A stretch of 64,000 nucleotides of DNA from Planctomycetota bacterium (lineage in GTDB: Bacteria > Planctomycetota > Phycisphaerae > Phycisphaerales > SM1A02), in contig QWPV01000004.1 in NCBI GenBank assembly GCA_003671055.1, forward strand, positions 1 to 64,000, given 5' to 3'. A program made the translations under genes and the position numbers. The notes under the pieces are model-generated. The model saw only the letters and a list, made by a program, of their open reading frames with translations, ran no database searches and was not told the origin of the DNA. Below, piece after piece: positions 31,462 to 57,193 of the stretch (position 1 is the stretch's first letter; each line of letters starts with the position of its first letter).

Positions 31462-31515
31462 AGTTTGTCGCAGCGCTCTAAGGACAGCACACAGTGATTG
31501 CATGAGGTACTTCGA

Positions 31516-32346
31516 ATGTTTGACACACTGACAGGTTCACTTTTCGAACGCATCACGCGGCTTGCGCGAGCCCGCTGGGGACTTTCGTTGACGGAACGAA
31601 AGTTCTCGCTTGTGCAGAATCGACTCACGAGTCATCTGCGCAAATCAGGCGGAACAATTGAGGAGTGGGTGCAACGGATCGAGAAGAGCCCCTCTGAGTC
31701 GGACATGCTGTTGTTCTTTGACATCCTCTCCACGAATGTCACGAGCTTCTTCCGCGACTCCACGCACTTCGATTTTCTCGAACGCGAATTGTGGACGCCA
31801 CTCGCGCGCGGCCAGCGCACTGCTGCTGGCCGCAAGATTCGATTCTGGAGCGCCGCTTGTTCGACCGGAGCGGAGCCCTACTCCATTGCGATGCAAGCAC
31901 TCGAATTGCTACCACCAGAGCAGCGTTGGGACGTGAAGGTCATAGGCAGCGACCTCTCGAGCAAGGCGCTTGCTGCTGCTCGCGCTGGAGTATTTCCCGA
32001 GAGTCAACTCGCAGGTCTCTCGCCCGAACGGCGCAAGCGTTGGCTCACGCCGTCGCCGAAATCTTCCGAACCTGAGTGGAGCATCCGTCCTGAAGTGCGC
32101 GCACTTGTGGAGTTCCGTCAACACAACCTCATGGACCCGCCGCACGCAATAGGTGGGCCATTCGATTGCATCATGCTGCGCAACTGCATGATTTACTTCG
32201 ACCGTGAGACACGCGAGGAAGTCGTGCATCGCATGCACTCCATGCTCAAGCCTAGTGCGTGGCTCATCGTCGGAAGTGCCGAGACGCTGTCGTCGCTCAA
32301 GGTGCCGTTCAAAACAACTGCCGCAAGTATCTACACGAAGGAGTGA
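31516..32346 (+). CDS. cheR: chemoreceptor methyltransferase CheR
   Basis: 276 residues. It transfers methyl from SAM to receptor glutamates. The N-terminal helical domain (GLSLTERKFSLVQNRLTSHL) is followed by the SAM-binding core: RFWSAACSTGAEPYSIAM (motif I), VIGSDLSSKALAAARAG, FRQHNLMDPP and FDCIMLRNCMIYFDRETREE, the CheR signature. ATG 31516 has GAGG 8 nt upstream and is preferred over an in-frame TTG at 31498. Confidence 0.95.
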   Translation: MFDTLTGSLFERITRLARARWGLSLTERKFSLVQNRLTSHLRKSGGTIEEWVQRIEKSPSESDMLLFFDILSTNVTSFFRDSTHFDFLERELWTPLARGQRTAAGRKIRFWSAACSTGAEPYSIAMQALELLPPEQRWDVKVIGSDLSSKALAAARAGVFPESQLAGLSPERRKRWLTPSPKSSEPEWSIRPEVRALVEFRQHNLMDPPHAIGGPFDCIMLRNCMIYFDRETREEVVHRMHSMLKPSAWLIVGSAETLSSLKVPFKTTAASIYTKE

Positions 32347-32355
32347 GCTCGGTTT

Positions 32356-32889
32356 ATGCCACCTCCCCGATCTGACACGGTTCCTTTTCTCGCCGCTAAT
32401 GCCGATCGCATCACGGTCGGCGTCGCAGACTTGCAGACAAGCAAGGACGCATCGCGCACGATCATCACCTATGCACTTGGATCGTGTATCGGGGTCACGG
32501 TGTGGGATCCCATCTTGCGCGCTGGAGGCATGCTGCATTTCATGCTTCCCGAAGCGGCGATCAGCCAACTACGCGCTGCGGAAAACCCATCCATGTTTGG
32601 CGACACTGGATTTCCAATGCTTCTCGATCGCGTCCTCGCACTCGGTGCGCGACGCGAACGGCTCATCATCTGCGCAGCGGGTGGTGCAGAAGTCCTTGCT
32701 GACGAGGGGCACTTCCGCATCGGGAGTCGAAATCGAACGCTGCTTCGAAAGTTGTTGTGGAAGCACGGCATGCTTCTCTCTGCGGATGACACCGGTGGCT
32801 CGCACAGCAGGACGCTCTCGCTCCGACTCGCCGATGGTTCCATTATCGTGAGAAGTCAGGGAAAGGAGCGTGCATTGTGGCCGAGCTAA
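32356..32889 (+). CDS. cheD: chemoreceptor glutamine deamidase CheD
   Basis: 177 residues. The Cys-His-Thr catalytic set is visible: Cys in YALGSCIGVTVWDP, His in GGMLHFMLP, and Thr in DDTGGSHSRTLSL. CheD deamidates receptor glutamines and, in systems with CheC/CheX, is controlled by it. Nine bases after cheR; its end overlaps the HDOD gene by 13 bp. Confidence 0.92.
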   Translation: MPPPRSDTVPFLAANADRITVGVADLQTSKDASRTIITYALGSCIGVTVWDPILRAGGMLHFMLPEAAISQLRAAENPSMFGDTGFPMLLDRVLALGARRERLIICAAGGAEVLADEGHFRIGSRNRTLLRKLLWKHGMLLSADDTGGSHSRTLSLRLADGSIIVRSQGKERALWPS

Positions 32890-33752
32890 TGCAACTTAGT
32901 TCAAAGGAAGCGCGCGCACTCGTTGCACACATCGAAGGATTACCCGCGATGCCAGCAGCCGCAATGCGACTGCTGTCTGCGATCGGGCGCGATCTCGACT
33001 TCACGCAAATCGATCACATCGTGCGCAGTGATGAAGCGATCGCCGCGCGTGTGCTGCGCATTGCAAACTCCGTTGTCTACAACCCACGCGGCGGGACGGT
33101 GATGTTGCCTGACGCTGTTCGTCGCCTCGGGACGAGAGCTCTCGTGCGCATTGCGATGGAAACTGAAATCGGTGGGCTTCTCGCCGAAGGTGGACGCGCG
33201 TATGGCATGCGGCGCGGCGACTTGAGCGAGGCTGCAGTCGGAGGTGCGATCGCCGCGGGGCTCATCGCCAAACGCGTCAGCGCCGATGAAGGTCTCTGTT
33301 TCGCGGGCGCATTGCTTCGCGACGTTGGCAAGATTGTGATTGATTCACTCGCTGGTCCAGCCGCACTCGATGCGCTCGCGGATCGAAGCGAGGGTCTTCC
33401 ATTTCTCGAATGTGAGCATGCGCAGTTCGGCGCGGATCACGCTGAACTCGGCGCAGCGCTCGCACAGCAATGGAAACTTCCTGATTCGATGGCGCGATTG
33501 ATTCGACTGCATCACACGCCGCCGCAAGATCCGCCGGATCTCGCGTGTGATGTCGTGCACGCAGCCGATTGGGTAGCACGATTTGCTGGGCTTGGACTAG
33601 GTGCGGATGGAATGATGTATCCATTTGATAGTGGCGCGCGAGTGAGGCTCGGCCTTACGCGTGCCGATCTCGAACCACTTGTCATCGCTGTGCTCACCGA
33701 AACCACACAGCAGCGCACGGCAGCGAAAGCTGCCTTTGGGAGAACCACATGA
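32877..33752 (+). CDS. HDOD-domain signalling protein
   Basis: 291 residues. HDOD domain with the start LPAMPAAAMRLLSAIG, AARVLRIANSVVYN and LPDAVRRLGTRALVRIAME; residues 100-210 keep a helical HD-like core with ALLRDVGKIVIDSL and LGAALAQQWKLPDSMARLIRLHH, but the metal HD pair is not intact, as in HDOD proteins generally. HDOD proteins act in signalling networks without clear enzyme activity. The GTG start at 32877 has AAGGAG 8 nt upstream inside cheD. Embedded in the che operon and overlapping the CheY-like gene (ATGA). Confidence 0.88.
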   Translation: MAELMQLSSKEARALVAHIEGLPAMPAAAMRLLSAIGRDLDFTQIDHIVRSDEAIAARVLRIANSVVYNPRGGTVMLPDAVRRLGTRALVRIAMETEIGGLLAEGGRAYGMRRGDLSEAAVGGAIAAGLIAKRVSADEGLCFAGALLRDVGKIVIDSLAGPAALDALADRSEGLPFLECEHAQFGADHAELGAALAQQWKLPDSMARLIRLHHTPPQDPPDLACDVVHAADWVARFAGLGLGADGMMYPFDSGARVRLGLTRADLEPLVIAVLTETTQQRTAAKAAFGRTT

Positions 33753-34150
33753 ACCCGCCGCTCACTTGTCATGTCCTCATCGTCGACGACTCTCCAATTC
33801 TGAGAGCCGCGATTAAGAAAGTCGTTCGACTCGCTGGAGTTCAGCCAGAACGGATCTTCGAAGCAGGCAATGGTCGCGAAGCACTCGATGTGATGTCGAG
33901 CGTGTGGGTCGATCTTGTGCTGCTCGACCTCAATATGCCCGTCATGGATGGCGAAGCATTTGCGAAAGAACTTCGCGAACACTCCGATCTCGCGGATGTC
34001 GCCGTTGTTGTTGTTTCAACCGAAGCAAACCGCGCACGACTCGAGCGCATGCGCGAGTACGGCGTGCGTCACACGTTGCGCAAACCATTCGAACCCGAAG
34101 AACTCTGCCGACTGATCACCGAAGTTCTCGGTGTGGCGACTGACCGCTGA
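33749..34150 (+). CDS. cheY: single-domain response regulator, CheY-like
   Basis: 133 residues, one receiver domain. The acidic pair is IVDDS, the phospho-acceptor is Asp in LLDLNMPVMDGE, the Ser/Thr is in VVVVSTEAN, and the Lys is in LRKPFEPEEL. No output domain, so it likely binds a motor or pilus component after phosphorylation by CheA. Overlaps the HDOD gene by 4 bp. Confidence 0.9.
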   Translation: MNPPLTCHVLIVDDSPILRAAIKKVVRLAGVQPERIFEAGNGREALDVMSSVWVDLVLLDLNMPVMDGEAFAKELREHSDLADVAVVVVSTEANRARLERMREYGVRHTLRKPFEPEELCRLITEVLGVATDR

Positions 34151-34176
34151 AGCTCACTTCCACGCTGGAGTACATC

Positions 34177-34638
34177 ATGCCTGAACCGACGCCCGATTCT
34201 AAGAATGTCCTTCATCCTGACGCCACGATGCTCGCTCGGATCACCATCGACGCGCTCGAACGCACTGCGTTCGTACTCGCAGATCCAGCCGATGATCCAC
34301 AGGCACTCCCTCCCATTTCGACGACCGCGAGCATCGACTACTCCGGCCCTTGCAATGGAGGCATCGACCTTGTCGCGAGTGCTGGATTCGGCCGAAATCT
34401 CGCCGCAAGTTTGCTCGGATGCGAGCCCTCCGAAGTGAGTGACTCCACTGCTGCCGAAGCGGTGCGTGAACTCGCGAACATCGTAGGTGGCTCGATGATT
34501 CTCGAACTCGGCGGCACAAATTGCTGCTACTCACTCGGCCTTCCGCGCACATCAGCTTCGCCGCGCAAAAACTTGGTGGAAAGTTGCGTCCTCAACGCCG
34601 AAGGCGAACGACTCGAAGTCCATGTCATCGCTGCCTAG
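34177..34638 (+). CDS. CheX/CheC-like CheY-phosphate phosphatase
   Basis: 153 residues. The family motif E-x-x-N lies in VRELANIVGGSMILELGG, with a preceding GCEPSEVSDSTAAEA helix, which matches CheX/CheC/FliY phosphatases. CheX normally dimerises and dephosphorylates CheY-P. Only one E-x-x-N is visible, as in CheX. Position between CheY and CheB fits signal termination. GGAG 7 nt upstream of the ATG. Confidence 0.8.
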   Translation: MPEPTPDSKNVLHPDATMLARITIDALERTAFVLADPADDPQALPPISTTASIDYSGPCNGGIDLVASAGFGRNLAASLLGCEPSEVSDSTAAEAVRELANIVGGSMILELGGTNCCYSLGLPRTSASPRKNLVESCVLNAEGERLEVHVIAA

Positions 34639-34665
34639 TGCCTGCGATTGTTCGAGAAACCGCCG

Positions 34666-35802
34666 ATGCCCAACGCACGAATCATCATTGTTGACGACAG
34701 CGCCGTGGTGCGCCAAGTGTTGCGCAACCAACTCGTGCGCCACGAAGGCATCGAGGTTGTCGCGACCGCTGCAGATCCCTTCGATGCACGAGAGAAAATC
34801 CTCGCGCTCAATCCGGACTGCGTGATCCTCGATCTCGAAATGCCCAAAATGGATGGGCTCACGTTCCTTCGGAAGTTGATGAAATTTCATCCCGTGCCCG
34901 TGATTGTCTGTTCCTCACTCACGCCGAAAGGTTGCTCGCTCGCCGTCGATTGTCTCGAGGCTGGCGCGTTTGAAGTTGTCTCCAAGCCAGGCGGAAACTT
35001 TAGCGTGGGCGAAGTTGCCGCTCGGCTTGCCGAGCTCGTGCGTGTCGCGGCATCAAGCCGCGCACGCACGGCTCGGCTCCTCTCGCCGCAAGGCGCGAAT
35101 GCGCTGTCGCTCGGGATGACCGCAACTCCTGCGCCGTCAATCGCAACCACGCTTCGTGCAACAGGGCCAGTGCTGCAGCAATCGCGCGGAGGAACCGATC
35201 GATTGATTGCGATTGGAACTTCAACGGGCGGAACCGAAGCGCTCCGCGTCGTGCTCTCTGAACTTACGCAGGACACGCCGGGGATCGTCATGGTGCAACA
35301 CATGCCCGAAGGCTTCACGAAAGCATTCGCAGATCGGCTGAACACACTGTGCCGAATCGAAGTGAAGGAAGCGGAGGACGGTGATGTCGTGCAAACGGGA
35401 CGCGCGCTCCTTGCGCCAGGAAATCGTCACATGCGTGTCGCGCGTGAAGGAACTCGTTGGGTTGTCCGCGTCGCCGATGGACCACGCGTGCTTCGGCATA
35501 AGCCATCCGTTGAAGTGCTCTTCGAAAGTGCTGCGCAAGTTGCTGGCGCGCGCGCGATGGGGTTGATCATGACCGGCATGGGCGGCGATGGTGCAACGGG
35601 GTTGCTCTCGATGCGCCGCGCGGGTGCTGTCACTGTTGCGCAAGACGAACAGAGTTGCGTGGTATTCGGCATGCCACGCGAAGCAATTCGTTGCGGCGCA
35701 GTACAAGTTGTCGCCCCGCTCGATCGCATTGCGAAACTCATCGCCGACTACACCGCCATGCGGCTTGTCGCCGAACCCAGCGCAGTCGTGACCGCCGCAT
35801 AA
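34666..35802 (+). CDS. cheB: chemotaxis methylesterase/deamidase CheB
   Basis: 378 residues. The receiver domain (IIIVDDSAVVRQ, Asp in VILDLEMPKMDGL) is followed by a linker and the methylesterase domain with catalytic Ser in GTSTGGTEAL, His in QHMPEGFT and Asp in MTGMGGDGATGLL. Phospho-CheB removes receptor methyl groups. ATG 34666 is preferred over TTG 34648. Last gene of the operon. Confidence 0.95.
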   Translation: MPNARIIIVDDSAVVRQVLRNQLVRHEGIEVVATAADPFDAREKILALNPDCVILDLEMPKMDGLTFLRKLMKFHPVPVIVCSSLTPKGCSLAVDCLEAGAFEVVSKPGGNFSVGEVAARLAELVRVAASSRARTARLLSPQGANALSLGMTATPAPSIATTLRATGPVLQQSRGGTDRLIAIGTSTGGTEALRVVLSELTQDTPGIVMVQHMPEGFTKAFADRLNTLCRIEVKEAEDGDVVQTGRALLAPGNRHMRVAREGTRWVVRVADGPRVLRHKPSVEVLFESAAQVAGARAMGLIMTGMGGDGATGLLSMRRAGAVTVAQDEQSCVVFGMPREAIRCGAVQVVAPLDRIAKLIADYTAMRLVAEPSAVVTAA

Positions 35803-38151: not shown

Positions 38152-39416
38152 TCATCGCCCTCCTGCGAAACGAGCACCGTCTCAACGCGTGCGCCATCCA
38201 TCGACTCGACTTCGAGCAGCACGTTGCCCAACTGGATGCGGTCACCCACGCGTGGAACTCGCGTCAATCGATCAAGCACGAGCCCAGCCACAGTGCTCGT
38301 GCGGCCCGATCGGATTTGAAGCCCGAAGACCTCACTCCACCGCTGCGCACTCATCTCACCACTCACGCGCCAACGACCATCGGGAAGTTCGACTGGTGAT
38401 GCGAGCGGATGTTCGCCAGTGCCAACGATGTCGCCGATGATTTCCTCAACGCAGTCCTCGACTGCGACAACGCCTGCTGTGCCTCCGTATTCATCAACAG
38501 CGATCGCGAGCTTTACCCCGGTCTTGCGAAAGTGCTCGAGCAAGTGCTCAAGCGACGCGAGTTCAGGAATGAAATGCACCTGCTGCAACGAATCCGCGAT
38601 GCTGCGACGGGGCTGCGTGAGCAACCATGATTTCACTGGTAGGAGACCGCGGATATCGTCCACGCCCTCGCCGACAATCGGAAAATGCGTGAGACGAAAA
38701 CTCGCCGCAGCCTCGAGTACATCGCGCTCGCTCGCGTCCATCTCAAGCCAAGCCATGTCGACGCGCGGCGTCATGACATCGCGCACACGAAGTCGGCGCA
38801 ATCGCACGACACCTTCGAGAACGCCTTGTTCTGCAGCGTCGATCGATCCACTCTGCGCGGAAAGATCGAGTAGCGCTGCGAGTTCTTCCTTCGTGAGCCT
38901 CGGCGCTTCTTGTGCCTTGCCGACAAGGCGTGCCAAGGGCGTGATGAAGAATTCATCGAGCACGTTTCGCACGGGCGCGACAACCGAATCGAATGCGATA
39001 GCCGGATACACGAGGAGTGCTGCGAGCCGCACGCGATCGAGCATCGCAAGTGCTTTCGGGAGAAGTTCACCCGCGACGACGCATCCAAAGATGGAAGCAA
39101 GCGCGAGCGCGGCCTTCCCCCACGGCGATCCACCGACTCGCGTGAAGAGCACTGTGCTCGCCACGAAGTACGCACTCGAACAGAGGATGGCGCCGATCAT
39201 CGTCGAGAGCAAGAGCGCACGCGGTCGACGACACAATCGCTCCACCAACGCAGATGCATGTGGATGTGTGCGCTTCATCGCGACACGATCTGATGCGGTC
39301 AATCCGAAGAGTGCCGTTTCGACTGCTGCAAAGAACGCGATCCCTGCAACCATCGGAATCATCGCGATGCCCACGGCGATTTCTGCGATGCCAGCAACTT
39401 CGCTCTCAATGCTCAT
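38148..39416 (-). CDS. CNNM/CorC-family membrane protein with CorC_HlyC domain
   Basis: 422 residues. Transmembrane DUF21 domain (AGIAFFAAVETALFGLTASDRV, GCVVAGELLPKALAML shown in part), CBS pair from about 215 (VRDVMTPRVDMAWLEMDAS, FRLTHFPIVGEGVDDIRGLL) and a CorC/HlyC domain (LAIAVDEYGGTAGVVAVEDC). The DEYGG motif is a family hallmark. Likely divalent cation export or homeostasis at the inner membrane. Overlaps the following gene (38151) and the preceding HscB-like gene (39413). Confidence 0.9.
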   Translation of the reverse strand: MSIESEVAGIAEIAVGIAMIPMVAGIAFFAAVETALFGLTASDRVAMKRTHPHASALVERLCRRPRALLLSTMIGAILCSSAYFVASTVLFTRVGGSPWGKAALALASIFGCVVAGELLPKALAMLDRVRLAALLVYPAIAFDSVVAPVRNVLDEFFITPLARLVGKAQEAPRLTKEELAALLDLSAQSGSIDAAEQGVLEGVVRLRRLRVRDVMTPRVDMAWLEMDASERDVLEAAASFRLTHFPIVGEGVDDIRGLLPVKSWLLTQPRRSIADSLQQVHFIPELASLEHLLEHFRKTGVKLAIAVDEYGGTAGVVAVEDCVEEIIGDIVGTGEHPLASPVELPDGRWRVSGEMSAQRWSEVFGLQIRSGRTSTVAGLVLDRLTRVPRVGDRIQLGNVLLEVESMDGARVETVLVSQEGDE

Positions 39417-39922
39417 CGCGCGCTCTCCCCCGCACCACGGTCGAGTTGCTCAAGCATTCGCTGCGCCGCGCGTAAGACATTCATCCCGAGCCACACATGG
39501 TGCGTTGCGTCTGGCGTCAACACGCTTCCATTGTCTCCCTCGTTAAACGCGCGTGCGATGTCGGCGATCGCGCTGTCTTTGAGACGAGCTCCTTCTTCCT
39601 TGAGTTCTCGCAGCACACTCTCATCGCCGCACGCGGCATCGAGACGCTCGCGCAACTCCATCATTTCGAGCAAAAAACCCGCCGGAAGTGCGCGTTCATC
39701 ACTTGGAGGAGCGTGTCGCGCTTGGAGCAACGCTGCACTTCGCAGCAGTGGATCGAGAAGCGCTTGATACGCATCGTTCAAACGCGCGGCATCCGCGACA
39801 TCGCCTCCCGCATCAGGATGCGCAGTCGCAACACGTCGCATCCACGCTCGACGAAGTTCGTCCGCACTGAGATTGAAACTCGGCGCAAGTCCAAGAACAT
39901 TGAATGGGCAGAACGCACTCAA
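39413..39922 (-). CDS. hscB: HscB-like J-domain co-chaperone
   Basis: 169 residues. J domain (DELRRAWMRRVATAHPDAGGD) with the HPD tripeptide that activates Hsp70 ATPase. The C-terminal helical part FLLEMMELRERLDAA matches the HscB/Jac1 segment that binds the IscU scaffold. HscB helps transfer iron-sulfur clusters with HscA. No isc or suf gene lies in the window; the operon companions are a PilB-like ATPase and CNNM proteins, so the functional link is unclear. Overlaps both neighbours by 4 bp. Confidence 0.82.
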   Translation of the reverse strand: MSAFCPFNVLGLAPSFNLSADELRRAWMRRVATAHPDAGGDVADAARLNDAYQALLDPLLRSAALLQARHAPPSDERALPAGFLLEMMELRERLDAACGDESVLRELKEEGARLKDSAIADIARAFNEGDNGSVLTPDATHHVWLGMNVLRAAQRMLEQLDRGAGESAR

Positions 39923-41601
39923 TCCGTGCCAGAAACCCTTTCGATCTCGTCGAAGCTTGTCATGCCGTTTGCGACGAGTTGGAATCCGTACGACTGCAGC
40001 GTGGTGAATAGACTGCCCGAGAGTGATTCTCGGATTTGTGCGATGGTCGGCTTTTTCAAAATCACATCGCGAAGGTTGTCATTGAACTCCACCATCTCGA
40101 AGATTGCGCGCCGCCCGTAGAAACCTGTGTCGAGACAGTACGCGCAACCTTGGGGCGCGTAGATCTGTGCAACGCCGTGCACAGACTTGCCCATGCGCAT
40201 CTGTTGCGCAGGCGTTGGAACCACTGCTTTTCTGCAGGTTCCGCACAGTACGCGCACGAGTCGTTGCGCAATTACGAGGTTGAGCGCGTTCGCGACTTGG
40301 TAACTCTCGACGCCGAGATCCATGAGTCGGAAGATCGTTCCGATCGTGTCGCGAGCGTGGACGGTCGAGAAAACAAGGTGACCCGTCATTGCTGCTTGCA
40401 TCGCAACCGTTGCAGTTTCAAGATCTCGGATTTCGCCCACCAAGATGACGTCAGGATCCTGACGCAGCACCGAACGGAGAAGTCCACCGAACGTATGCCC
40501 CTGCTTGCCATCAATCGGAATCTGCGTGGCGCCGTCGATCTGATACTCGACAGGATCTTCAATCGTGATTGCGTTCCGTTCCACAAGATTGATTTCACGC
40601 AAGCATGAGTACAGCGAAGTCGTCTTGCCCGATCCTGTTGGACCGCACACAAGAATGAGACCCGCATCGCGATTGCAGACGACGCGAACCTTCTCATACA
40701 TCCACGGCAACAGTCCCATCTCATGCAAACGACCTGGAGCAGTCGCGGGATCAAGCACGCGCACCACCATCTTCTGACCATGCACCGCTGGCGTGAGACT
40801 CACGCGGTAATCAACGCGACGAGACTTCACGTTCACGGTGAAGTGGCCGTCAAGCACTTCGTTCTTCATGCTCTGATCGAAATGGCAGAGCACTTTCACC
40901 ACACCGAGAATCCGACGGAAGACCTGCAGCGGTAGATCACACACCGTCACCATCGTTCCATCGACGCGAAAGCGCACCACGGCAACATCGGTGCGAGGCT
41001 CGATATGCAAATCGCTCGCACGGGCGCGGAAGCATGCGAGCAAGAGCAGTCGATAGATGTAGACGCTTTCTGCTGGCGCGTCGTCACCGGAATCACCCTC
41101 GCCCTGCGCAGCGTGCATCACAGCGCCGCGTGCATCGACGAGCGCGATGTCGGTCTCGCCGAACTGCTTCGCTAAACTCGAGTCAATGACGCGTCGGATA
41201 TCTGCTTCATAACTCGATTGCGCGACAACTTCTCTCGCATCGATGTCGATGGTCGCCTGCGGCCGTGCACGCGCCTGCTGCGGCGGAGGAGTCGCGGACT
41301 TCACTGGTTCGGCGCCTTGGGGTTCGAGGAAGCGAATCTCTATCGAACCGATCCGAATGATGTCGCCGTTTCCGAGCACCTGAAGCGGAACCTTCGCGCC
41401 ATTCACCTTCATGCCGTTACGGGAACCGAGGTCGCGGACTTGCCAGAGCCCGTCAATAGTCTCAATGACGCAGTGCTGACGGCTCAAGCCATCGTCGTTG
41501 TAGTTGATTTCATTTTCTGGAAGTCGTCCGACACGAACTGGTTCGGCTGCGAGATCCATGCGCCGCGTCCAACGCGGGCTTGTTACTTCAAGAAATGCCA
41601 T
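39919..41601 (-). CDS. FHA-domain fusion of a PilB/GspE-type secretion ATPase
   Basis: 560 residues. The N-terminal FHA domain (about 20-80) has GRLPENEINYNDDGLSRQHC and LGSRNGMKVNG, which bind phosphothreonine. After a Pro/Gln/Arg-rich linker comes an N2-like domain and the ATPase: Walker A CGPTGSGKTTSLYS, Asp box TIEDPVEYQIDG, Walker B VILVGEIRDLETA, His box GHLVFSTVHARDT and the tetracysteine zinc site (VLCGTCRKAV and GCAYC). It powers type IV pilus extension or type II secretion. FHA fused to PilB is unusual and suggests control by Ser/Thr phosphorylation. Start MAFLEVTSPRW because the upstream 18 residues are unlike the rest. Confidence 0.9.
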   Translation of the reverse strand: MAFLEVTSPRWTRRMDLAAEPVRVGRLPENEINYNDDGLSRQHCVIETIDGLWQVRDLGSRNGMKVNGAKVPLQVLGNGDIIRIGSIEIRFLEPQGAEPVKSATPPPQQARARPQATIDIDAREVVAQSSYEADIRRVIDSSLAKQFGETDIALVDARGAVMHAAQGEGDSGDDAPAESVYIYRLLLLACFRARASDLHIEPRTDVAVVRFRVDGTMVTVCDLPLQVFRRILGVVKVLCHFDQSMKNEVLDGHFTVNVKSRRVDYRVSLTPAVHGQKMVVRVLDPATAPGRLHEMGLLPWMYEKVRVVCNRDAGLILVCGPTGSGKTTSLYSCLREINLVERNAITIEDPVEYQIDGATQIPIDGKQGHTFGGLLRSVLRQDPDVILVGEIRDLETATVAMQAAMTGHLVFSTVHARDTIGTIFRLMDLGVESYQVANALNLVIAQRLVRVLCGTCRKAVVPTPAQQMRMGKSVHGVAQIYAPQGCAYCLDTGFYGRRAIFEMVEFNDNLRDVILKKPTIAQIRESLSGSLFTTLQSYGFQLVANGMTSFDEIERVSGTD

Positions 41602-41713
41602 AACGGAGATCGTACAGCGCGAGACAACTAAAATTTGAATGCAACGAAACGCCAAGACCGCTTTGCGTGCGCTTCCTTCCGCTTAGAATCCTGTTCCACG
41701 AGGGCGCCTAGTC

Positions 41714-42248: not shown

Positions 42249-43484
42249 TTACTTGGTCTTGGTTGCTTTCGACGCAGGCTTGGCTGCTTTCGCAACTTTT
42301 GCGACCTTCGCCACCTTGGTGACTTTGGCAACCTTCGCGACCTTCGTGACTTTCGCAACCTTAGTGACCTTCGCAACCTTGGCTACCTTGGCTACTTTGG
42401 CTACTTTGACAACCTTAGTCACCTTAGCTGCTTTGGCAACTGTTGCTTCCTTCGCAATTTTTTCGACCTTGGCAACCTTCGCTACTTTGGCAACCTTCGC
42501 TACTTTCGCTACTTTCGCGACCTTCGCAACCTTGGCAATCTTTTTAGGTGCCTCTTCTTTCGTGTTGCTCGGGACGCTTGAAGACTTCGACGCTTTCACG
42601 ACGCTCGCGAGCTTCGCCGCAGTCGAGGTCGCCTTGGACGTTGCCAACGACGCACTCTGAGCGAGCGGCTTCGCTGGCGATGCTGATGCTGCTGCTGATG
42701 GAACTGGTGCAGCTGTGGTTCCGAGTGGCCTTGCCATCGGGCGCACAGGGCCTCCGACAGTTCCTGAGAATGGACGAGCGACGACTCTTGTCGGTGCTCC
42801 GGCGTATCCTGAAAGCGAGCCGGACCCTGCACCCGCGGTCGGAGCACTCGAGTTTCGCACGGGAAATGCTGAGGTTCCAGATGACATGGGGCGACTTGTG
42901 ATTCCCATCGATGTGTTCGGCGCGAGGCTCGGTCGTGGTGCTGTGGATGGATCCATCGGACCGACACCCGACAGCGGCGCTGATGCGCGCAAAGGCGCGC
43001 CTTCCTCTGCGCGAGCGGAGTAGCCGCCGATTGGCCTCGAGGATCGAGGCGCAAAAGCGCTTGGCGCGTTCGAGGGATACTCAGAACGCGAACTCCCGAA
43101 AGAGGATCCACCAGCACTCGCACCAGGGCTTCGTCGTGGATTTGCGCGACCACCAAATCGCGCGACGCCACCGCCGCGATTCATATGTGGACCGAACGGA
43201 CCTGTTTGCACAGGGCGCTCCTGCACGGCCGCCTTCTTCTTCACAACTTCGTTAATCACGAGCTCTTTGCCCAGCAAGCGTTTCCCGATGTTTGCAGCGA
43301 TTGCCGCACGACCTAGCTCAGGATCACGCACCATGATGATGGCAAAACCCTTGCTTTTCTCGGTATCGGGATTGATCGCGATGACCGCGTCTTCGATCGG
43401 AACAAACGGCGCGAAGAGCTCACGAATTTGCTCAATCTTGGTTCGAGGCTCGAGATTGCCCACGTAGATTTTGAACATAGCCAT
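42249..43484 (-). CDS. RRM protein with a long Lys-Val-Ala repeat tail
   Basis: 411 residues. N-terminal RRM: RNP2 IYVGNL, RNP1-like KGFAIIMV (aromatic residues partly lost). Then a Gly/Ser/Pro/Arg-rich middle (about 90-290) and a C-terminal tail of about 100 residues built from KVA, KVT and KIA tripeptides, strongly basic, resembling histone-H1-like or AlgP-like tails that bind nucleic acid. It could compact RNA or DNA or form condensates. Start MAMFKIYVGNL rather than an upstream in-frame ATG whose 28 residues are poor. Confidence 0.85.
   Translation of the reverse strand: MAMFKIYVGNLEPRTKIEQIRELFAPFVPIEDAVIAINPDTEKSKGFAIIMVRDPELGRAAIAANIGKRLLGKELVINEVVKKKAAVQERPVQTGPFGPHMNRGGGVARFGGRANPRRSPGASAGGSSFGSSRSEYPSNAPSAFAPRSSRPIGGYSARAEEGAPLRASAPLSGVGPMDPSTAPRPSLAPNTSMGITSRPMSSGTSAFPVRNSSAPTAGAGSGSLSGYAGAPTRVVARPFSGTVGGPVRPMARPLGTTAAPVPSAAASASPAKPLAQSASLATSKATSTAAKLASVVKASKSSSVPSNTKEEAPKKIAKVAKVAKVAKVAKVAKVAKVAKVEKIAKEATVAKAAKVTKVVKVAKVAKVAKVAKVTKVAKVTKVAKVAKVTKVAKVAKVAKAAKPASKATKTK
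42265..42544 (-). repeat. Lys-Val-Ala tripeptide-coding repeat
   Basis: Imperfect 9-bp tandem units inside the gene above, read as AAGGTNGCG-like on the minus strand. The units keep the protein frame but vary in third positions (GCA/GCG/GCC, GTC/GTT/GTA), so the array has drifted under coding selection. Confidence 0.85.
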
Positions 43485-44216
43485 AGGAATGTCTTTCGTT
43501 CGTTTCCCGCCAAAAGACATCCCCCACCAGACGCTGTAATGCCAGCGCGAGACGCTGTTGGAAGCCATTCCGAATCAACGCACCGACACTGTCTAAAGAA
43601 CGATCAAGATTGTCAAGCAGTCCAACGGCCGTTCCCCAAAAATTCTTAGATGAGCGAGGGCATGCCACGCCCAACAACGAGCCGTCCATCAACCGGCGGT
43701 TCCCAAACGATCACCATCGATCACTGCGCGTCGGGAGTCCATCAGCAATCCCCAAATAGGAGCGGCACCCACCGTCAACGCTCAAGGTACCAGCGCACTG
43801 GCGACGCACAGCCGCCGAATGCGTCACGAACAGGACGCAACCGTCCACCGCCTTTGCCCCCGCCCAAGCGAATGCGTGCACATGCGCGAGACCTCTCCAC
43901 CGTTTCGACAGAATCCGCCATCAATCAACACGCGCATCGCTTCGAAGCGAAGTCCCACCTTCAAGCACTGCGATTCAAGCGAAAAGACTCGAATTCAATT
44001 GAGTCGAAACCAAGGCCAAAACCCGAAACCAGAATCGAACTTCAAGTAGTCAGGGTTCGACACATTTGAAGCATCTCGGGGCCGCCACCATAAAACAGGC
44101 AACGCACGCACCGAAGATCCAGACGCGCGAGAAAACACCCAAGCCTTGAAACGCCGTTCAATCTCGCAAGCCATCCGGCAATCGAAAAAGAACACATGGC
44201 GCACACGCCGCGCATG
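43485..44216. other. 732-bp region without a supported gene
   Basis: Between the KVA-repeat gene start and the 5S terminator. A plus-strand open frame at 43650-44069 is compositionally unlike the neighbouring genes and has no domain. No tRNA fold or strong hairpin was found. The left part probably holds the promoter of the RRM gene. Confidence 0.5.
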
Positions 44217-44259: not shown

Positions 44260-44264
44260 ATTAA

Positions 44265-44370
44265 GCCGGCAATCACCTACTTTCCCGCTGAGCAGTATCA
44301 TTGGCGACAAGGTCTTAACTTCTGTGTTCGGGATGGGAACAGGTGTGACCCCTTGTCTATATTCACCGGC
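44265..44370 (-). rRNA. rrf: 5S ribosomal RNA
   Basis: Minus-strand sequence contains the conserved blocks CACACCTGTTCCCATCCCGA and GAAGTTAAGACC plus GGGAAAGTAGGTGA. The ends pair (GCCGGTG with TTGCCGGC), giving about 106 nt. It is downstream of 23S in the same unit. Confidence 0.93.
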
Positions 44371-44373
44371 AAT

Positions 44374-44403
44374 CCATGGAGTGCCATTCCTGGCACTCCA
44401 TGG
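44374..44403 (-). other. hairpin just upstream of 5S
   Basis: A perfect 13-bp stem CCATGGAGTGCCA / TGGCACTCCATGG with a GGAA tetraloop in the RNA, three bases before the 5S 5' end. Likely a processing signal for 5S maturation. Confidence 0.6.
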
Positions 44404-44562
44404 TGATAAATCGTGCAATGTGTCGCGCTTCGAATCACTCAAGACAAATCATGGACTTCATGAAAATCTAGAGCGGTCGTAAACTGCATGTCTAACGAGC
44501 GAAGTCGGCGACCAGTCAGCCGACCGCAGAAAAACTGCGATTCGGAGACCGGTAGACGCGAC

Positions 44563-47317
<2,755 letters not shown>

Positions 47318-47895: not shown

Positions 47896-49890
47896 TTATG
47901 AGCCTTCACCGCCGCGCGGCCCATACTTAGGTGCGTCGCCACCAGCGCCTGTACCGACGCCGCCTCCAGCAGGAGCGCCGCCTGTTGCTGCATCGCCTGT
48001 GGCTGGCGCTTTCACACCCTTCTTTTGCCGTGCTTCGGTCTCTGCGAGCTCTGCATCGTCAAAGTACTCACGCCTGCGCGCATCCGCGGTGTCCGCGGTT
48101 GGCACACGAACCTCATAGGGATCCTCTGGACGAGCGAGTTCCTTCACAAGCACGACTGCCGCGCCACGTCGATCGCTTGCGCCTCGATCGACCGAAGGAT
48201 CCGCAACGATGTCAACAATGTAATATCCGGTGGAGAAGTCATTAGACGAGCCTGAAGTACTAATAACATCACCAGGCTGCAGTGTTACGCGCTCACGGCG
48301 GCGAGCGCCGTCTCGATATCGATAGATCTCGACAGATGCTTGTCCGACGCCGAGACGACCTTCGGCAGGCGCTGCATCCACGAAGAAGAACGCAACGGGT
48401 GGAATCACTCGAATCGGCTCGCCCCAACCACTTTCGATGCTTCCGAGGATGAACGGGGTTGCGTTGGCTTTTTGCTCGGCAACGAGTTGCGCGCCCCGTG
48501 CGAAAAATGGGTTGTAGAAGTTCGCCGAGCAAGAATATCGATAGGTTTTACCTGGTACGACGGAAATGTCGTGCGTCCACACGAGCACGGATGGATCCGC
48601 AGCGAGGTCGGGGAACTTCGATTTTGGCGCAGCAAGTGTTGCTTTCGCATCGAGCGCGGTCAGTGTCTCAGTTCCAGCGTCGACAAGTGCTTGCTCGCGC
48701 CTTTGCTTCTTCGTCAACGCGATGCGCTTTGCTTTGCCTGCCTCGTCCTTCGGGTCTGCGCCATCAGCGCCACGCTTTCCGCCACCCATGCCACCACCAA
48801 GACCACCACCACCAAGTCCACCGCCTGGCCGTCCGCCCGCACCACCGCCGCCTGCGGAGTCGCCACCGCCTGGCTTCTTTGGCGCTTCCTCAAGCGGGCC
48901 ACCCGCATCGGTGAGTTGCTGTGAGGTCTGTGCCAGGTTGGCTTGGGCTGTTGCGAGCTTCTTCTTTGCGGCGCGAATTTCTGGCTTGTCCCCGTCCGAC
49001 TCGCTGCCGCTTTCCGCGACCATCAAGCCGGTGGAGAACGCGCCTACCTTCGTGGGAAGGAATGCAGGTTGAATGACTTCGCGCTGATTTGCAGGATCGG
49101 AAAGTTGCGTGAACACGGACTGACGCAATCCAGCGTCAGCTCCCTTTGCAATCTCGGCGCGATAGTTGAAAGCGACTGTAGGAAGATGACCAACGACAAC
49201 TTCGTCTCCCCAAGTGCCATCGGCGCGCTCTGTCTGACGGTGGAATTCGACGTCCACAATATAGAACGCACTGTTGTACCAAATGGTTGGAATCTGCTTG
49301 CGCGGTGGGGAAAGGCCGAGGTCGTCTGCCGACATTTCCTTGCGCACTGCGCTGAGATCAAGCACCGCGGAGGGAACCGTCCAGAGCACGTCGTAGGGCG
49401 CGGAAGAACTCGCCAGCAGTGACTTCAACTCTGGATACTGCTCGACCACTGCGTCTTCGAGCGTGTCTGCGAGTTGAATCGTTGGTTGCAGTGCGACCGA
49501 AGGCAGCGAGGGTTCGTGGTACCACGAGTCTGCTGATCCGCCGCCCGAACTGAGCAGCGAACCCATAGCGGGCGAAAGTCGCGCGAGGCGAGAGGACGGA
49601 GCGACGCCGCGATCAAGACGCGCAATGAACGCATCTGCTGCGGGATCAAGGCCGTCTTTCGGGATCGTGATGGATGCTTGATCCGAGTCGAGCAACGCCT
49701 TCACCGTGTTCGACTTCACGCCGATGACCTTGGCGATTTCGCCTGGATCTACAGTCTGTGAGCCAAGCTTCACCTCATTAGGTGAATGCACAAGTTGCCA
49801 GCCTGCGACGCCCACAAGCGCCAGCAAACTAACACCTAGGACGAGCTTCTCAACATGCTGCTCAAGGGGCTTCATGCCTTTGGTCTTCAT
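47896..49890 (-). CDS. large single-span membrane protein, pilM operon gene 3
   Basis: 664 residues. One transmembrane helix near the N-terminus (LVLGVSLLALVGVAGWQLV) makes most of the chain extracytoplasmic or leaves a short cytoplasmic tail. Middle helix-rich stretch (AKKKLATAQANLAQTSQQL), then a Gly-rich low-complexity block (about 350-390, GGGLGGGGLGGGMGGGKRG), a beta-rich part (WTHDISVVPGKTYRYSCSAN) and a C-terminus with KYGPRGGEGS. No family recognised with confidence; position suggests a PilO/PilP-like partner of PilM. Start MKTKGMKPLEQ has GGAG 8 nt upstream. Confidence 0.75.
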   Translation of the reverse strand: MKTKGMKPLEQHVEKLVLGVSLLALVGVAGWQLVHSPNEVKLGSQTVDPGEIAKVIGVKSNTVKALLDSDQASITIPKDGLDPAADAFIARLDRGVAPSSRLARLSPAMGSLLSSGGGSADSWYHEPSLPSVALQPTIQLADTLEDAVVEQYPELKSLLASSSAPYDVLWTVPSAVLDLSAVRKEMSADDLGLSPPRKQIPTIWYNSAFYIVDVEFHRQTERADGTWGDEVVVGHLPTVAFNYRAEIAKGADAGLRQSVFTQLSDPANQREVIQPAFLPTKVGAFSTGLMVAESGSESDGDKPEIRAAKKKLATAQANLAQTSQQLTDAGGPLEEAPKKPGGGDSAGGGGAGGRPGGGLGGGGLGGGMGGGKRGADGADPKDEAGKAKRIALTKKQRREQALVDAGTETLTALDAKATLAAPKSKFPDLAADPSVLVWTHDISVVPGKTYRYSCSANFYNPFFARGAQLVAEQKANATPFILGSIESGWGEPIRVIPPVAFFFVDAAPAEGRLGVGQASVEIYRYRDGARRRERVTLQPGDVISTSGSSNDFSTGYYIVDIVADPSVDRGASDRRGAAVVLVKELARPEDPYEVRVPTADTADARRREYFDDAELAETEARQKKGVKAPATGDAATGGAPAGGGVGTGAGGDAPKYGPRGGEGS

Positions 49891-49935
49891 TGCGTGCTCC
49901 AATTCAATCTGATGGCGCTCAATGGCGCTCCACAC

Positions 49936-51369
49936 TTAACTACCTGTTGTCTCGCCGCTTGCTTCTGCTGACTCTGCTGTGATCGTCGTGACTCCGAGAA
50001 GTCCTCGCACGGACTCTGGCATGAAAAACGCTGTCCACTCTCGGAACCAGATGGTTTCGATATCCAATGTCACCGTCGAGACTGGCTCCACGCCGTATGC
50101 GAAACCCTTCCGCGCTGCGGCGAATGGATCTGCAGGAACGACTTCCATGTCGAGAATTGTCATGAAGTTCTCGCGTGAAAGCGCGTTGAGCACCGCTGGA
50201 ATCGCTGCTGTTTCCGCCACAAACACCAGGGTCACTTGACGCACGTCATAGACCGTGTTTGATGTTCGACCCGTAAATGACTTGGAGTAATCGCGCGCTG
50301 CTTCGGCTGCAGGATCGACTTGAGGACTGCCGAGTCCGGCTCGCACTGTTGCCGTTGGTGTTGGCGTTGCTGCACCCTCGGGTGATTCGGGCGCGGCACC
50401 GAACGCGGCGGCCTCGCCAGAACTTGCGTTCTCGGAAGCGGATCCTTCCTCGCTCGCTCCTCCTGATTTTCCCATGGGGGCAATCGTGAGGGAGATGAGA
50501 TGCTTCACGGGTGCTCGCAACTCAGGAACGAGTTCTTTCGCACCATCTTGATTCGCGGCGTAGAGGCCACGCAAGATGTCTTCGGTTACCCAAAACCTCC
50601 ACTGCCAGTCAAACAGTGTTTGCTCGTATGCGGCGATCTGCGCAGGCTTCTCGAAGTCGAGCGCCTTTGCAGCCGCTTCCGTTGGGATCGAAAGATCAAT
50701 CGGATCGCAAAAGAACGACACACCCATCGCGGATGATTCGAGCAGACCAATGCGATCGCTTGCGAGCTTCTGTTCAAGCTTGAGTTTCTCCTCTGCGGAG
50801 AGACTCGCTGCATCATTCTTTCGAAGATCTTGGTTGATGAAGTTGAGCCGCGCACCCTCGAGACGCTTCGTGATTTCGGTGACCGAAGGCGCTGTGCCCG
50901 CGTGGACATCTGCAAGGAGTTTCGCGTACTGCGCGGCAACAAACTTCTGCGCTGCGTAGCGAACCTTTGCTGCCTGCTTGTCGTTGATTCGAGGCAAAAA
51001 CTCGGCGATTTCTGACTTCGGATCGTACGGATCACGACCATTCAGATTCCGCGCCAGCGCGGCCTGCTGAATCTTCGTCGCGTCCTCAGCGATAACGTTG
51101 ATGACTTGGCCGTACTGCTTCACCACGGCTTCGTTGATCACGCCCTTTGCATTGAAGGGCTCTGCACTTCCGGGGAATGCGATCGTGATCGAGCCCTTCT
51201 CAGCGCCCTCAAGCTCACCGAACCGCCGCGCTTGCTCTTCTGCTTTCAGCCGCACAGTTTCATTGAACCCCGCGCTCGCAAACCAGCCTCCTGCAAGCGC
51301 CGCGATGATCGTTCCACAAAATACGACGACGAGCACATGTTCTTTGACGAACGCGATCACTTGCTTCAT
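49936..51369 (-). CDS. single-span membrane protein, pilM operon gene 2
   Basis: 477 residues. N-terminal anchor (VLVVVFCGTIIAALAGGWFAS), then a long alpha-helical region with coiled-coil character (ETVRLKAEEQARRFGELEG), a low-complexity Ala/Ser/Glu/Pro stretch near 305-345, and a C-terminal alpha/beta domain (YDVRQVTLVFVAETAAIPAVL) that resembles the ferredoxin-like domain of PilO/GspM-type proteins, though the match is only by shape. Predicted partner in the inner-membrane platform. ATG overlaps the pilM-like stop region by 4 bp. Confidence 0.75.
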   Translation of the reverse strand: MKQVIAFVKEHVLVVVFCGTIIAALAGGWFASAGFNETVRLKAEEQARRFGELEGAEKGSITIAFPGSAEPFNAKGVINEAVVKQYGQVINVIAEDATKIQQAALARNLNGRDPYDPKSEIAEFLPRINDKQAAKVRYAAQKFVAAQYAKLLADVHAGTAPSVTEITKRLEGARLNFINQDLRKNDAASLSAEEKLKLEQKLASDRIGLLESSAMGVSFFCDPIDLSIPTEAAAKALDFEKPAQIAAYEQTLFDWQWRFWVTEDILRGLYAANQDGAKELVPELRAPVKHLISLTIAPMGKSGGASEEGSASENASSGEAAAFGAAPESPEGAATPTPTATVRAGLGSPQVDPAAEAARDYSKSFTGRTSNTVYDVRQVTLVFVAETAAIPAVLNALSRENFMTILDMEVVPADPFAAARKGFAYGVEPVSTVTLDIETIWFREWTAFFMPESVRGLLGVTTITAESAEASGETTGS

Positions 51370-53534
51370 TGCGCAGCCTCCGCAGATGCCGGAGCCGACA
51401 CCTGAACATCACCGTTAATCTCAACTGTAAAGACAATTTGTGCGCGGTAGATTTCCGAGCCCACTGGGAACATCGCTGGCCGTGAAGGAAGTGGTGCGAG
51501 TGAGTCAAGCGAGGTGCTCGCTTCATTCGTTGCGCCAGATCCGCGGTCAATCTTGTTCCCGCCACTCTGATCGGAACCATCGCCACGCGGGCCGTAGTTT
51601 GGATTCTCTTTCTCAGGCGTTTCGAAACTGGTCCCGCCAGCACCTGCGCCACTCAAACGTCCTTTCGGCGCAGCAATCTGCGTACCGGACGCGCCACGCT
51701 TTCCTTTCACGCCACCGAAAGTACTTCCGCTGCCATCGCCGCCTCCCGCGTTCACATCGTTGCCTTCCTCGTCCTTCATATTCGCGGATTCAAATCGTGG
51801 CTTCGAAGAGCCAGACGCTGCACTTCCACCGGCCTCGGCGTCTGCGCCCTGCGCACTTCCATCCGCGGCAACGATGAATTTGTCATCTTTGCCGCTGTTG
51901 TAGCGCACAGAAACGATCTTGTACGGCGACTTGGGATTGGATGCGCGCTTAGGGTCCTTCAGGAACTCGACGATCTTCTCGTCGATGAATCGCTGTGGAT
52001 CTCCTGATGCGTAATCAATCGCCATCGTCACTTCGACGGTCCGCTTTGAATTCGCGATGCCGTAGCGACCCGAGAGCGAAAGCAGTTCGACTTGCTCGCG
52101 TTGATTCGCGGGCTTCTCGCCGAGTTCCTTCGTCCATGTCGCGCTCTGATACTCGTCGTTGGTTGCATTGTCGACCGCTGCCGCGACATCGTTCAAGATG
52201 CATGGCCACACTTCACGATCTTCGAGCAAGCGCTGCGCGTTTGTTGCGCGGAATCCAACATTGGACTCGCCCTCTTTCGCCTTCAACGCATCGACTTGCG
52301 TCTTCGCTGCACGAATCACCGAGTCTGCAGCGCTCACTGAGTCTTGATTTGCTGCCACGGCTGCTTGATCAGAAAGTCCTCGTGCAAACATCAGCGCGCC
52401 AGCGCCGACGCCGAGTGCTGCAGCAGTCGCGAACCAGCGATTCTTCGCTTGCCAGAGTTGGCGACGAAGCACTGCAGAAGGCGCGAGATTCACTTCGATT
52501 GGCGCAAGTCCAATGCCTTGCAGCGCGAGACCGTACGCAGTCGCAAGATTGATTGTTGCTGCGGAGAGATCCGCGCCGCGCTCGCCTTCGAATCGAATGC
52601 GTCGGAACTCGTCGTAGCGCAGCACCTCGAGATTCAGCTGTTGACCGAGGAATTTGCGCAGGCCAGGAATTTTGAATGTGGATCCGAGTCCGAGCACCGT
52701 CTTCAACTGCACGCCACGATTGAGCTGCTGGTAGTACACGAGCGACTTCTGCACATCGCCGAGCAGATCACCGAAAACCGTGCGCATTGCTTGCATCATC
52801 TGCTTCGCGTACTTACTCGTCGCGCCGTCGCGCTTGAGTTCTTCTGCCTTGGAGTAAGAGACTTGAAACGCTTCTGCAATCGCTTCGGTGAAGTGCGTGC
52901 CGCCGAGCGGGAATGTGCGAATCCAGCAGCGATTTCCGTGTGCAACGATGAGATCGGTTGCAAGCGTTCCGATGTCGAGGATGACGACAGGCTCGCTCGT
53001 GTCATTGAGTCCGAGGTCATACGCGAGACCGTTGTATGCGCCCACTGGACCGAGTGTCACTTGCTGCGCGCCGACACCGACATCGCTGTAGAGCGAGAGG
53101 CGTTGATCGAGTCGATCTTTCTGAATCGCGAAGATTCCGACTTCAATCTCCGGTGAATCTGCAGATTCGAATGTCTGGTAGTCCCACTCAACATCATCCA
53201 TTTGAAATGGAATTTGCTGCTGCGCCTCGAAGCGAACGATGTTCGCAACTTGCTTCGGTTCAACTGGAGGAAGTTTGGTAAAGCGCGCAAACGCCTGATT
53301 TCCAGGGATTGAGAGCACAACCTTCTGCTTCTCAAGCACGCGCTCGCTCATGAATTGACCGAGACTCAGACGAATCATTTCGTCGACGTCGAGATCGGGA
53401 GTCGTGAGCACCTTGCGATGCGGGATGACGGCGAAATCTGCGATGCGGGCTTCGTCGCCAACGCGCTCGAGGCGAATTGCCTTAACTGCGAAGGATCCGA
53501 TTTCAATACCCCATGCTGAGCGTGCTGATGCCAT
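51366..53534 (-). CDS. pilM: PilM-PilN-like fusion protein
   Basis: 722 residues. Residues 1-345 are a PilM-type actin-like ATPase: AWGIEIGSFAVKAIRLERV, KVVLSIPGNQAFARF, ILDIGTLATDLIVAHG (phosphate 2 motif) and VLGLGSTFKIPGL. After IEVNLAPSAVLRRQLW, which copies the INLLP cytoplasmic motif of PilN, come a transmembrane helix (WFATAAALGVGAGALMF, about 367-383) and a periplasmic helical part. The remaining 200 residues are Gly/Ser-rich, with NYGPRGDGS near 650. In standard systems PilM and PilN are separate proteins joined by the INLLP peptide; here the peptide seems fused in cis. Strong SD (GGAGG). Start of a three-gene operon. Confidence 0.88.
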   Translation of the reverse strand: MASARSAWGIEIGSFAVKAIRLERVGDEARIADFAVIPHRKVLTTPDLDVDEMIRLSLGQFMSERVLEKQKVVLSIPGNQAFARFTKLPPVEPKQVANIVRFEAQQQIPFQMDDVEWDYQTFESADSPEIEVGIFAIQKDRLDQRLSLYSDVGVGAQQVTLGPVGAYNGLAYDLGLNDTSEPVVILDIGTLATDLIVAHGNRCWIRTFPLGGTHFTEAIAEAFQVSYSKAEELKRDGATSKYAKQMMQAMRTVFGDLLGDVQKSLVYYQQLNRGVQLKTVLGLGSTFKIPGLRKFLGQQLNLEVLRYDEFRRIRFEGERGADLSAATINLATAYGLALQGIGLAPIEVNLAPSAVLRRQLWQAKNRWFATAAALGVGAGALMFARGLSDQAAVAANQDSVSAADSVIRAAKTQVDALKAKEGESNVGFRATNAQRLLEDREVWPCILNDVAAAVDNATNDEYQSATWTKELGEKPANQREQVELLSLSGRYGIANSKRTVEVTMAIDYASGDPQRFIDEKIVEFLKDPKRASNPKSPYKIVSVRYNSGKDDKFIVAADGSAQGADAEAGGSAASGSSKPRFESANMKDEEGNDVNAGGGDGSGSTFGGVKGKRGASGTQIAAPKGRLSGAGAGGTSFETPEKENPNYGPRGDGSDQSGGNKIDRGSGATNEASTSLDSLAPLPSRPAMFPVGSEIYRAQIVFTVEINGDVQVSAPASAEAAQ

Positions 53535-55498: not shown

Positions 55499-57193
55499 TC
55501 ATCCGCCGGTCTTGAACTGACCGAGCAGTCCCTTCAACTGCGCCACTTGTGACGCGGTCTCTTCGCTCGCAGCACTCAATTCCTCGCTGTTTCCAGCGTT
55601 TTGCTGCGTGACCTTGTCGAGTTCAGAGACGCCAGAGTTTACTTGTGAGATGCCTTGTGCTTGCTCCTTGCTCGCGCTCGCAATCTGTGTGAGCAGGTCA
55701 TTCACTTCCTTCGTGCCCACCACAATCGTGCGAAGCGATCCATCGACCTCGTTGCAAAGCGTCACTGCGCGATTGGCGCGAACAGTGGACTCATCAATCA
55801 TCGCGGCCGTCTCACGCGCTGCCTGCGCGCTGCGCTGTGCGAGCGTTCGAACTTCTTCTGCGACAACCGCAAATCCCTTGCCTGCTTCACCTGCTCGCGC
55901 AGCTTCAACAGCTGCGTTGAGTGCCAAGAGGTTTGTCTGGAAAGCGATTTCGTCGATGACCTTGAGTACCTTGCCAATTGAATCGCTCGACTGCTTGATC
56001 GCGCCCATTGCTTCGGTCATTCGAGCCATACCTTCCTGGCAAGAGTTCGCCTTCTCACGGGCGGCATCGCTTCGGGTGACCGCTGAAGTGCAGTTCTCCG
56101 CGTTGCGCTCGGTCATGGAGGACATCTCTTCAAGACTGGCTGAAATCTGCTGCAAACTGGCTGCTTGCTCGCTTGCGCCGCTCGCGACCGATTGACTTGT
56201 CGATGCGACTTGCGAACTTCCCGCATCGATCTCCGCGGCACCGCGACGGATGTCCGAAAGGATGCGATCGAGCTTCTCGATGAACTTGTTGAACCAGTTC
56301 GAGAGGACGCCGAGTTCATCCTTAGAGTCTGCCCTCAGCCGCTGCGTGAGATCGCCATCACCCTCCGCGATGTCCTTGAGTCTTGCGATCATCTCGCGCA
56401 TCGGTCGGCCGAACGCGATCGTCAAGATCCAACTGAACCCACCGATGCCAACCACGAGCACTGGAACACTCCACATCGCGCCGTAACTCACGAAGCCTGC
56501 AACTTGTTCATCCATCGGTGCCAGCGGCATTGCGACTTCATACGCGCCATGCGTGCCGCCGACGCTCCAATTTTCCATCGGGAAACCCAGCGCATCTTTG
56601 CCGTCGCCATCGGGGTCGTACTTTCCTCCTGGTGCGCCATGGCAAAGCATGCAACTCTCATCAAGTTTGATCGCGCGGAAATAGTGCAGTGTGTTCGTCG
56701 CGCGATCAATGCGGCCGATGCTCCCCGCGTTTCCGGCAGCAATCTGCGTCTCGAGGTCTTTAAGAAGCTTGGCACGGAAACTGCCGGATTCTGGCTCGTT
56801 TTTCTTGTTGCGCGCATCGAAGGCGATGACCTTGAAGTCGATGTTCTCACTCTTAGCGGCTCTCTCTGCGGTGACCCAACCAGTCACGACTGGAATCGTC
56901 TGAAAGAAGCGGCTTTTCGTATAGTCGCCACCCTTTGCGACCTCGGCGTTCAATTCAGTCAGCAGCTCATCGACGGCGATAGACTTTTTCAAGAAGAGTT
57001 CACTTGCGTGATTCTTCGCTTCATCGGCAACGGCAGTGAATGCTGCAGCCTTTTCCATCATTGCGGTTTCTGCGCTTTCGCGGAAACGCTTGACAAAGAC
57101 GGTGTAACTGACGCCAGCGACCGCGAGGGTCACAAAGGTTGCCAACACGATGATTCGCGTACTGAGGGAAATGTTGCGGAGCCATGAGAACAT
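55499..57193 (-). CDS. methyl-accepting chemotaxis protein with heme-binding sensor domain
   Basis: 564 residues. TM1 at about 12-34; periplasmic sensor 35-235 of the Tll0287/DUF3365 type, with a c-type heme motif CMLCH (C181, C184, H185), followed by DPDGDGKD, which looks like a calcium-binding loop. TM2 near 235-255, HAMP, then a signalling domain with the hairpin tip [21 protein letters not shown] split in the family style. Heme-binding receptors sense gases or redox state; ligand unknown here. GGAGG 8 nt upstream of ATG. It is the only receptor in the window and a natural client of the che operon 20 kb away. Confidence 0.92.

Follow-up and report, generated by a model that had tools for sequence, protein, structure and literature searches.

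PilM-like and PilN-like parts are united in a single protein in GspL, PulL and EpsL of type II secretion (PMC10191384, PMC6325625), and most type IV pilus clusters of Campylobacterota carry a fused pilM-pilN (PMC11870540). The locus of Akkermansia that is homologous to the one studied here, MUL2 or Amuc_1098–1102 (PMC13174399, PMC5332112), has been described as an attachment system resembling a secretion system (PMC13174399), and its PilQ, Amuc_1098, is a protein of 907 residues with a TPR plus Secretin layout (PMC4960237). A fused PilM-PilN is an already known arrangement, represented by GspL, by the pili of Campylobacterota and by the Amuc_1101 family.

We analysed a window of 64,000 nucleotides (the whole stretch of DNA), in which three adjacent genes on the minus strand invite comparison with these systems. 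With the Akkermansia locus (Amuc_1101, Amuc_1100, Amuc_1099 and the secretin Amuc_1098) they share a long PilM-type protein, which matches Amuc_1101/MUL2B (Akkermansia muciniphila, NF045709) across the PilM/PilN junction, an Amuc_1100-like PilO-fold protein that follows it, and a TPR-secretin that is linked to the operon in planctomycete relatives. They differ from it in that genes 2 and 3 are larger here, the secretin is unlinked and the family score falls under the 650-bit cut-off. The canonical type IVa set of PilM, PilN, PilO, PilP and PilQ has the same PilM-PilN order and NLLP motif, and its PilO and PilQ have counterparts here in a PilO-like partner and an orthologous secretin; however, pilM and pilN are one gene here, gene 3 has no recognisable PilP and the secretin gene lies elsewhere. 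GspL, PulL and EpsL are likewise natural, single-span fusions of a PilM-like and a PilN-like part, whereas the PilM part here is PilM by sequence and by fold score. The pil clusters of Campylobacterota also have pilMN as one gene at the cluster head, but in another phylum (PMC11870540). The features of the locus are as follows.

51366–53534, minus strand: gene 1, fused PilM-PilN protein of the Amuc_1101 type (722 aa, ATG start, frame without interruption)
52512–53510, minus strand: PilM actin-like domain, residues 9–341 (Pfam PilM_2, AF2, Foldseek; pLDDT of the block mostly 94–98)
52479–52499, minus strand: INLLP-equivalent segment IEVNLAP, residues 346–352 (conservation; profile alignment through the INLLP of 5eou)
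52371–52439, minus strand: predicted transmembrane helix, about residues 366–388 (hydropathy in relatives; AF2 helix 353–395)
51846–52346, minus strand: predicted PilN-like periplasmic coiled coil and alpha/beta domain, residues 397–563 (AF2; the PilN profile match is the coiled-coil part)
51510–51836, minus strand: low-complexity disordered insert, residues 567–675 (pLDDT < 50)
51417–51455, minus strand: last beta strand, residues 694–706 (AF2 model)
49936–51369, minus strand: gene 2, PilO/Amuc_1100-like protein of 477 aa (AF2, Foldseek, NCBIfam Amuc_1100_fam)
47896–49935, minus strand: gene 3, at most 679 aa, N-terminal transmembrane helix and large periplasmic part (synteny, alignment)

The PilM and PilN halves of gene 1

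The initial annotation placed an actin-like PilM domain, an INLLP-like segment and a PilN-like transmembrane helix in one chain, and this layout is borne out by Pfam, by conservation of the motif, by a PilN profile match and by the AF2 model. Pfam PilM_2 covers residues 9–339 (E = 5.6e-31; 108.1 bits against a cut-off of 27), and NCBIfam Amuc_1101_fam (NF045709) aligns residues 1–456 to positions 1–463 of its 608, a match of 237.7 bits that spans the PilM/PilN junction. Since the curated equivalog cut-off of this family is 650 bits, gene 1 is a relative and no NCBI equivalog of Amuc_1101; all 53 fused members match the same model at E ≤ 0.01 (best 1.8e-79). The Pfam PilN model itself gave no match.

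Structure prediction, which had been proposed as a check on the actin-like fold, returned that fold with high confidence. In the AF2 model the actin-like domain (residues 1–341) is followed by a long membrane helix, a coiled coil and an alpha/beta domain, with the disordered insert at 567–675; the alpha/beta elements of the periplasmic part lie at residues 442–563 and 694–706, and the strand formed by the latter probably completes the periplasmic domain. The transmembrane helix is weakly hydrophobic in the sequence of gene 1 itself, but hydropathy shows it clearly at the corresponding position of most relatives. The junction residues are modelled with high confidence, which plausibly fits docking of the NLLP segment in PilM, a contact that would here be made within the same chain.

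It is improbable that gene 1 is a GspL and the operon a true type II secretion platform. GspL has the same PilM plus PilN layout, and weak matches to Pfam T2SSL are found in 10 of the 53 members, with TIGR01709 matching in nine (9/53). However, PilM models score far higher on gene 1: TIGR01175 (pilM) reaches 129.6 bits, narrowly under its cut-off of 133, against 15 bits for T2SSL. Foldseek likewise ranks the PilM:PilN1-12 structure 5eou first for the gene 1 model (1.6e-25), with the cytoplasmic domain of EpsL far lower (2.3e-9), and a separate cluster of secretin, GspE, GspF and pseudopilin-like genes sits on contig 46 of the genome.

The PilN half is recognised by profile comparison. Searched against the PDB, the whole-protein profile matches Myxococcus xanthus PilM at 1.9e-64 and, separately, M. 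xanthus PilN at 7.6e-6, and it aligns through the INLLP of 5eou (the P. aeruginosa PilM:PilN1-12 construct). A profile of the C-terminal half, built from fused proteins alone, has M. xanthus PilN, from its residue 3, as its single significant PDB match (E = 8.7e-6); it also detects stand-alone PilN proteins encoded beside stand-alone PilM in canonical pil operons of other planctomycetes (E = 5e-4 to 6e-11). When the PilN half was compared by hhalign, as a single sequence, with the separate PilN of its own genome, the NLLP motif alone was aligned. At the junction, the alignment of 53 fused sequences shows LALQG, a spacer of a few residues and I-x-x-N-L-L-P, after which R, W and K lead into a hydrophobic helix. 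P352 occurs in 53/53, while the positions of L350 and N349 hold L in 48/53 and N in 47/53, respectively.

Distribution and descent of the fusion

The three-gene operon had been called unusual, a description that does not hold across the phylum. The initial annotation had also suggested a search for the fusion in other Planctomycetota genomes, and this gave matches nearly throughout: gene 1 is matched in 145/147 sampled Planctomycetota genomes and in 196/198 of the class, and almost all leading matches lie in single open frames of 530–960 codons, with short stand-alone PilM making up a minority of the weaker ones. The same operon recurs, a walk over 61 loci (by a crude method) recovering gene 2, as a single-span protein, at 59 of them and gene 3 at 51. 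The fusion and the operon are not unusual within the phylum, and the hosts of the fused protein are mostly environmental planctomycetes. There were three misses, in G032, G160 and G122; true loss was rejected for the first two, where 12,000 N exactly at the locus and a contig that starts inside the gene, respectively, account for them. An explicit description of a planctomycete PilM-PilN fusion was not found in the one open-access library searched, which is no proof of its being undescribed.

These data bear directly on the concern that two genes were joined by frameshift, sequencing error or misassembly. Nothing was found in favour of such an artefact, and the frameshift worry is excluded because the sampled, independent genomes show this one reading frame again and again, with P352 invariant at the junction; we regard its probability as negligible.

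A 100/99 branch of the PilM-domain tree splits the 53 fused operon proteins from 16 stand-alone PilM. Three shorter fused PilM-PilN proteins (540–558 aa; L264–L266) lie with the stand-alone PilM as a separate group with 100/99 support, which suggests that more than one fused lineage exists, and these proteins possibly represent an independent fusion. As the tree is unrooted, fusion events are not countable from it alone. Three further loci (L261–L263) encode PilM paralogues of 560–567 aa with two hydrophobic segments in place of the NLLP/PilN part, and a pilin-like gene follows the paralogue in L262 and L263. One fused PilMN (L116, G178) comes from a genome of family f7 yet falls within the clade of f2, which belongs to another order, pointing to transfer or contamination, and a record titled Chitinophaga pinensis (L165) carries a planctomycete-type fused PilMN and is probably a mislabelled MAG.

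Partner genes, secretins and motor genes

The start of gene 2 overlaps the end of gene 1 by 4 bases and gene 3 directly abuts gene 2. Two single-span proteins had been noted here in place of recognisable PilO, PilP and PilQ; the single-span pair and the absence of a PilP signature stand, but a PilO fold is found in gene 2 and a PilQ lies on contig 14. The gene 2 model (AF2, pLDDT 85) has one N-terminal transmembrane helix, a coiled coil, a helical region and a ferredoxin-like C-terminal part. Foldseek places P. aeruginosa PilO first and Amuc_1100 (6lad/6laf/6kny) next, with probabilities of 0.90–1.00 and E-values of 1.6e-3 to 1.7e-2; for PilO 2rjz and 5uvr the probability is 1.00 (E = 1.6e-3 to 1e-2) and about 75 residues alone are matched. 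These scores are weak, and no unrelated fold ranks alongside PilO/Amuc_1100. NCBIfam Amuc_1100_fam matches 5 of 59 gene 2 members (best E = 6.6e-4). By its predicted fold, gene 2 is a PilO/Amuc_1100-type protein.

When the sequences of genes 2 and 3 were searched against the PDB, chance matches alone came up. Gene 3 matches no Pfam family and has no PilP or GspC HR-type signature; hhalign gave no link between it and the PilP-slot proteins of canonical planctomycete operons, and Pfam PilP had no match above its cut-off in 99 planctomycete genomes. It occupies the PilP/GspC slot, and from this position we infer its role. M16 of gene 3 hardly varies in the alignment, which makes this residue (position 49890) the probable start. 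Here gene 3 is the last gene of the operon, since 23S and 5S rRNA genes come next (44264–47317, minus strand, directly downstream, with no adjoining 16S in the part searched). ORFs of an rRNA region likewise trail the operon in two relatives (L053 and L054).

In 10 loci of relatives the operon is followed by a long secretin-like gene, and all five of those tested with Pfam encode TPR-secretins. The present genome holds four secretins, and for 10/10 of the operon-linked secretin-like proteins of relatives the contig-14 protein is by far the best match among the four. This protein (1002 aa) has a TPR N-terminus and a Secretin domain, like gene 4 of the relatives, and is, on sequence comparison, the orthologue of their operon-linked PilQ; PilQ is therefore unlinked here and not missing. 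In a locus of another lineage (L070), type IV pilin-like genes come after the secretin.

A search for pilC and pilQ elsewhere in the genome, also proposed initially, was productive for both: alongside the PilQ-type secretin of contig 14, contig 19 carries PilC together with PilB, PilT, a second PilB-type ATPase and pilin-like genes. Contigs 46 and 8 carry further PilB/PilC/secretin sets, which makes the pairing of the operon with the contig-19 genes a putative one. On contig 46, moreover, pilM (377 aa) and pilN (239 aa) are separate genes of an ordinary operon, with a secretin gene behind them. Within the window, 39919–41655 (minus strand) encodes an ATPase of GspE/PilB type that carries FHA at its N-terminus and lacks MshEN; a small DnaJ-like ORF (39413–39922) adjoins it.

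The proposed machine and its meaning

We propose, with a probability of about 0.8, that the products of the three genes make up the inner-membrane part of a type IV pilus-type machine, one of the planctomycete/Akkermansia kind. The best reading of the platform is PilMN-PilO-(PilP slot)-PilQ, with the genes scattered across contigs. This is supported by homology to PilM and PilN on one chain, with 5eou as best match, by the phylum-wide operon with its linked secretins and the pilin-like genes in L070, and by the PilB/PilT/PilC/pilin-like cluster of contig 19. It is also consistent with Rhodopirellula baltica, where salt stress induced pilM (RB2860, fused or stand-alone) together with the distant pilT/pilB/pilC (RB12773–12781) (PMC2754498). 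The proposal is weakened by gene 3, which has no PilP/GspC signature, and by the PilO match of gene 2, which covers about 75 residues at E ≥ 1.6e-3. The initial suggestion of a reorganised platform is not sustained, given a PilO-like gene 2, a secretin orthologue in the genome and a fusion that is common within the phylum.

In the assembled machine, the actin-like domain of gene 1, presumably of the ATP-binding type, would lie close to PilC and PilB on the cytoplasmic side, with the NLLP segment docked in the PilM cleft of the same chain. One membrane span would lead to the coiled coil and PilN-like domain in the periplasm, where, by analogy with PilMNOP elsewhere, the PilO-type product of gene 2 would pair with the PilN part. 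Judging from the same systems and from its position, gene 3 most likely bridges the ring to the outer-membrane secretin. The PilQ-type secretin of contig 14 and the PilB/PilT/PilC motor and pilins of contig 19 may then complete the machine.

The homologous locus in Akkermansia is tied to mucin use, which counts against a pilus. The three genes might belong to an attachment or mucin/glycan-uptake apparatus like MUL2, made of pilus-related parts and with no retractable pilus; we consider this unlikely, though it is the alternative that deserves most weight. Kinship to the Amuc_1101 family, an Amuc_1100-like gene 2 and the account of MUL2 as an attachment system (PMC13174399) speak for it, whereas the hosts are mostly environmental planctomycetes, a PilT-type ATPase gene is present in the contig-19 cluster and pilin-like genes adjoin the L070 operon. 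Co-option into a flagellar cage, as for FcpMNO, is very improbable: Campylobacterota did recruit PilMNO homologues to flagellar motors, but the cage is reported in Campylobacterota only (PMC11870540), and it is secretin genes, joined by pilin genes in one lineage, that accompany the fused operon.

On the reading as a pilus-type platform, annotation is corrected from PilM alone to PilMN in nearly every sampled planctomycete genome, the missing neighbours are supplied (gene 2 as the PilO-like partner and a secretin encoded elsewhere), and the pilus locus of Akkermansia gains a connection to a large group of environmental bacteria. Because it would fix PilM and PilN covalently at 1:1, a naturally fused PilMN is also a convenient object for structural studies of PilN sensing by PilM. 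More tentatively, and with odds slightly short of even, Planctomycetota, and probably Akkermansia as their relative, may share a distinct, vertically inherited platform in which a fused PilMN is joined by a PilO-type protein of larger size and by an unrecognised third subunit. In that case, Amuc_1100 would by homology be a PilO-type inner-membrane platform protein; it has been studied immunologically and is described as a pili-like outer-membrane protein.

Elsewhere in the window, 42249–43568 (minus strand) encodes a protein of RNA-binding type (439 aa) whose long tail consists of AKV repeats. A chemotaxis-type cluster with CheA-, CheR- and CheB-like genes occupies 28301–35802 (plus strand), and 55499–57193 (minus strand) encodes a chemoreceptor-like protein that contains a CxxCH motif. 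It is possible that these genes control the pilus.
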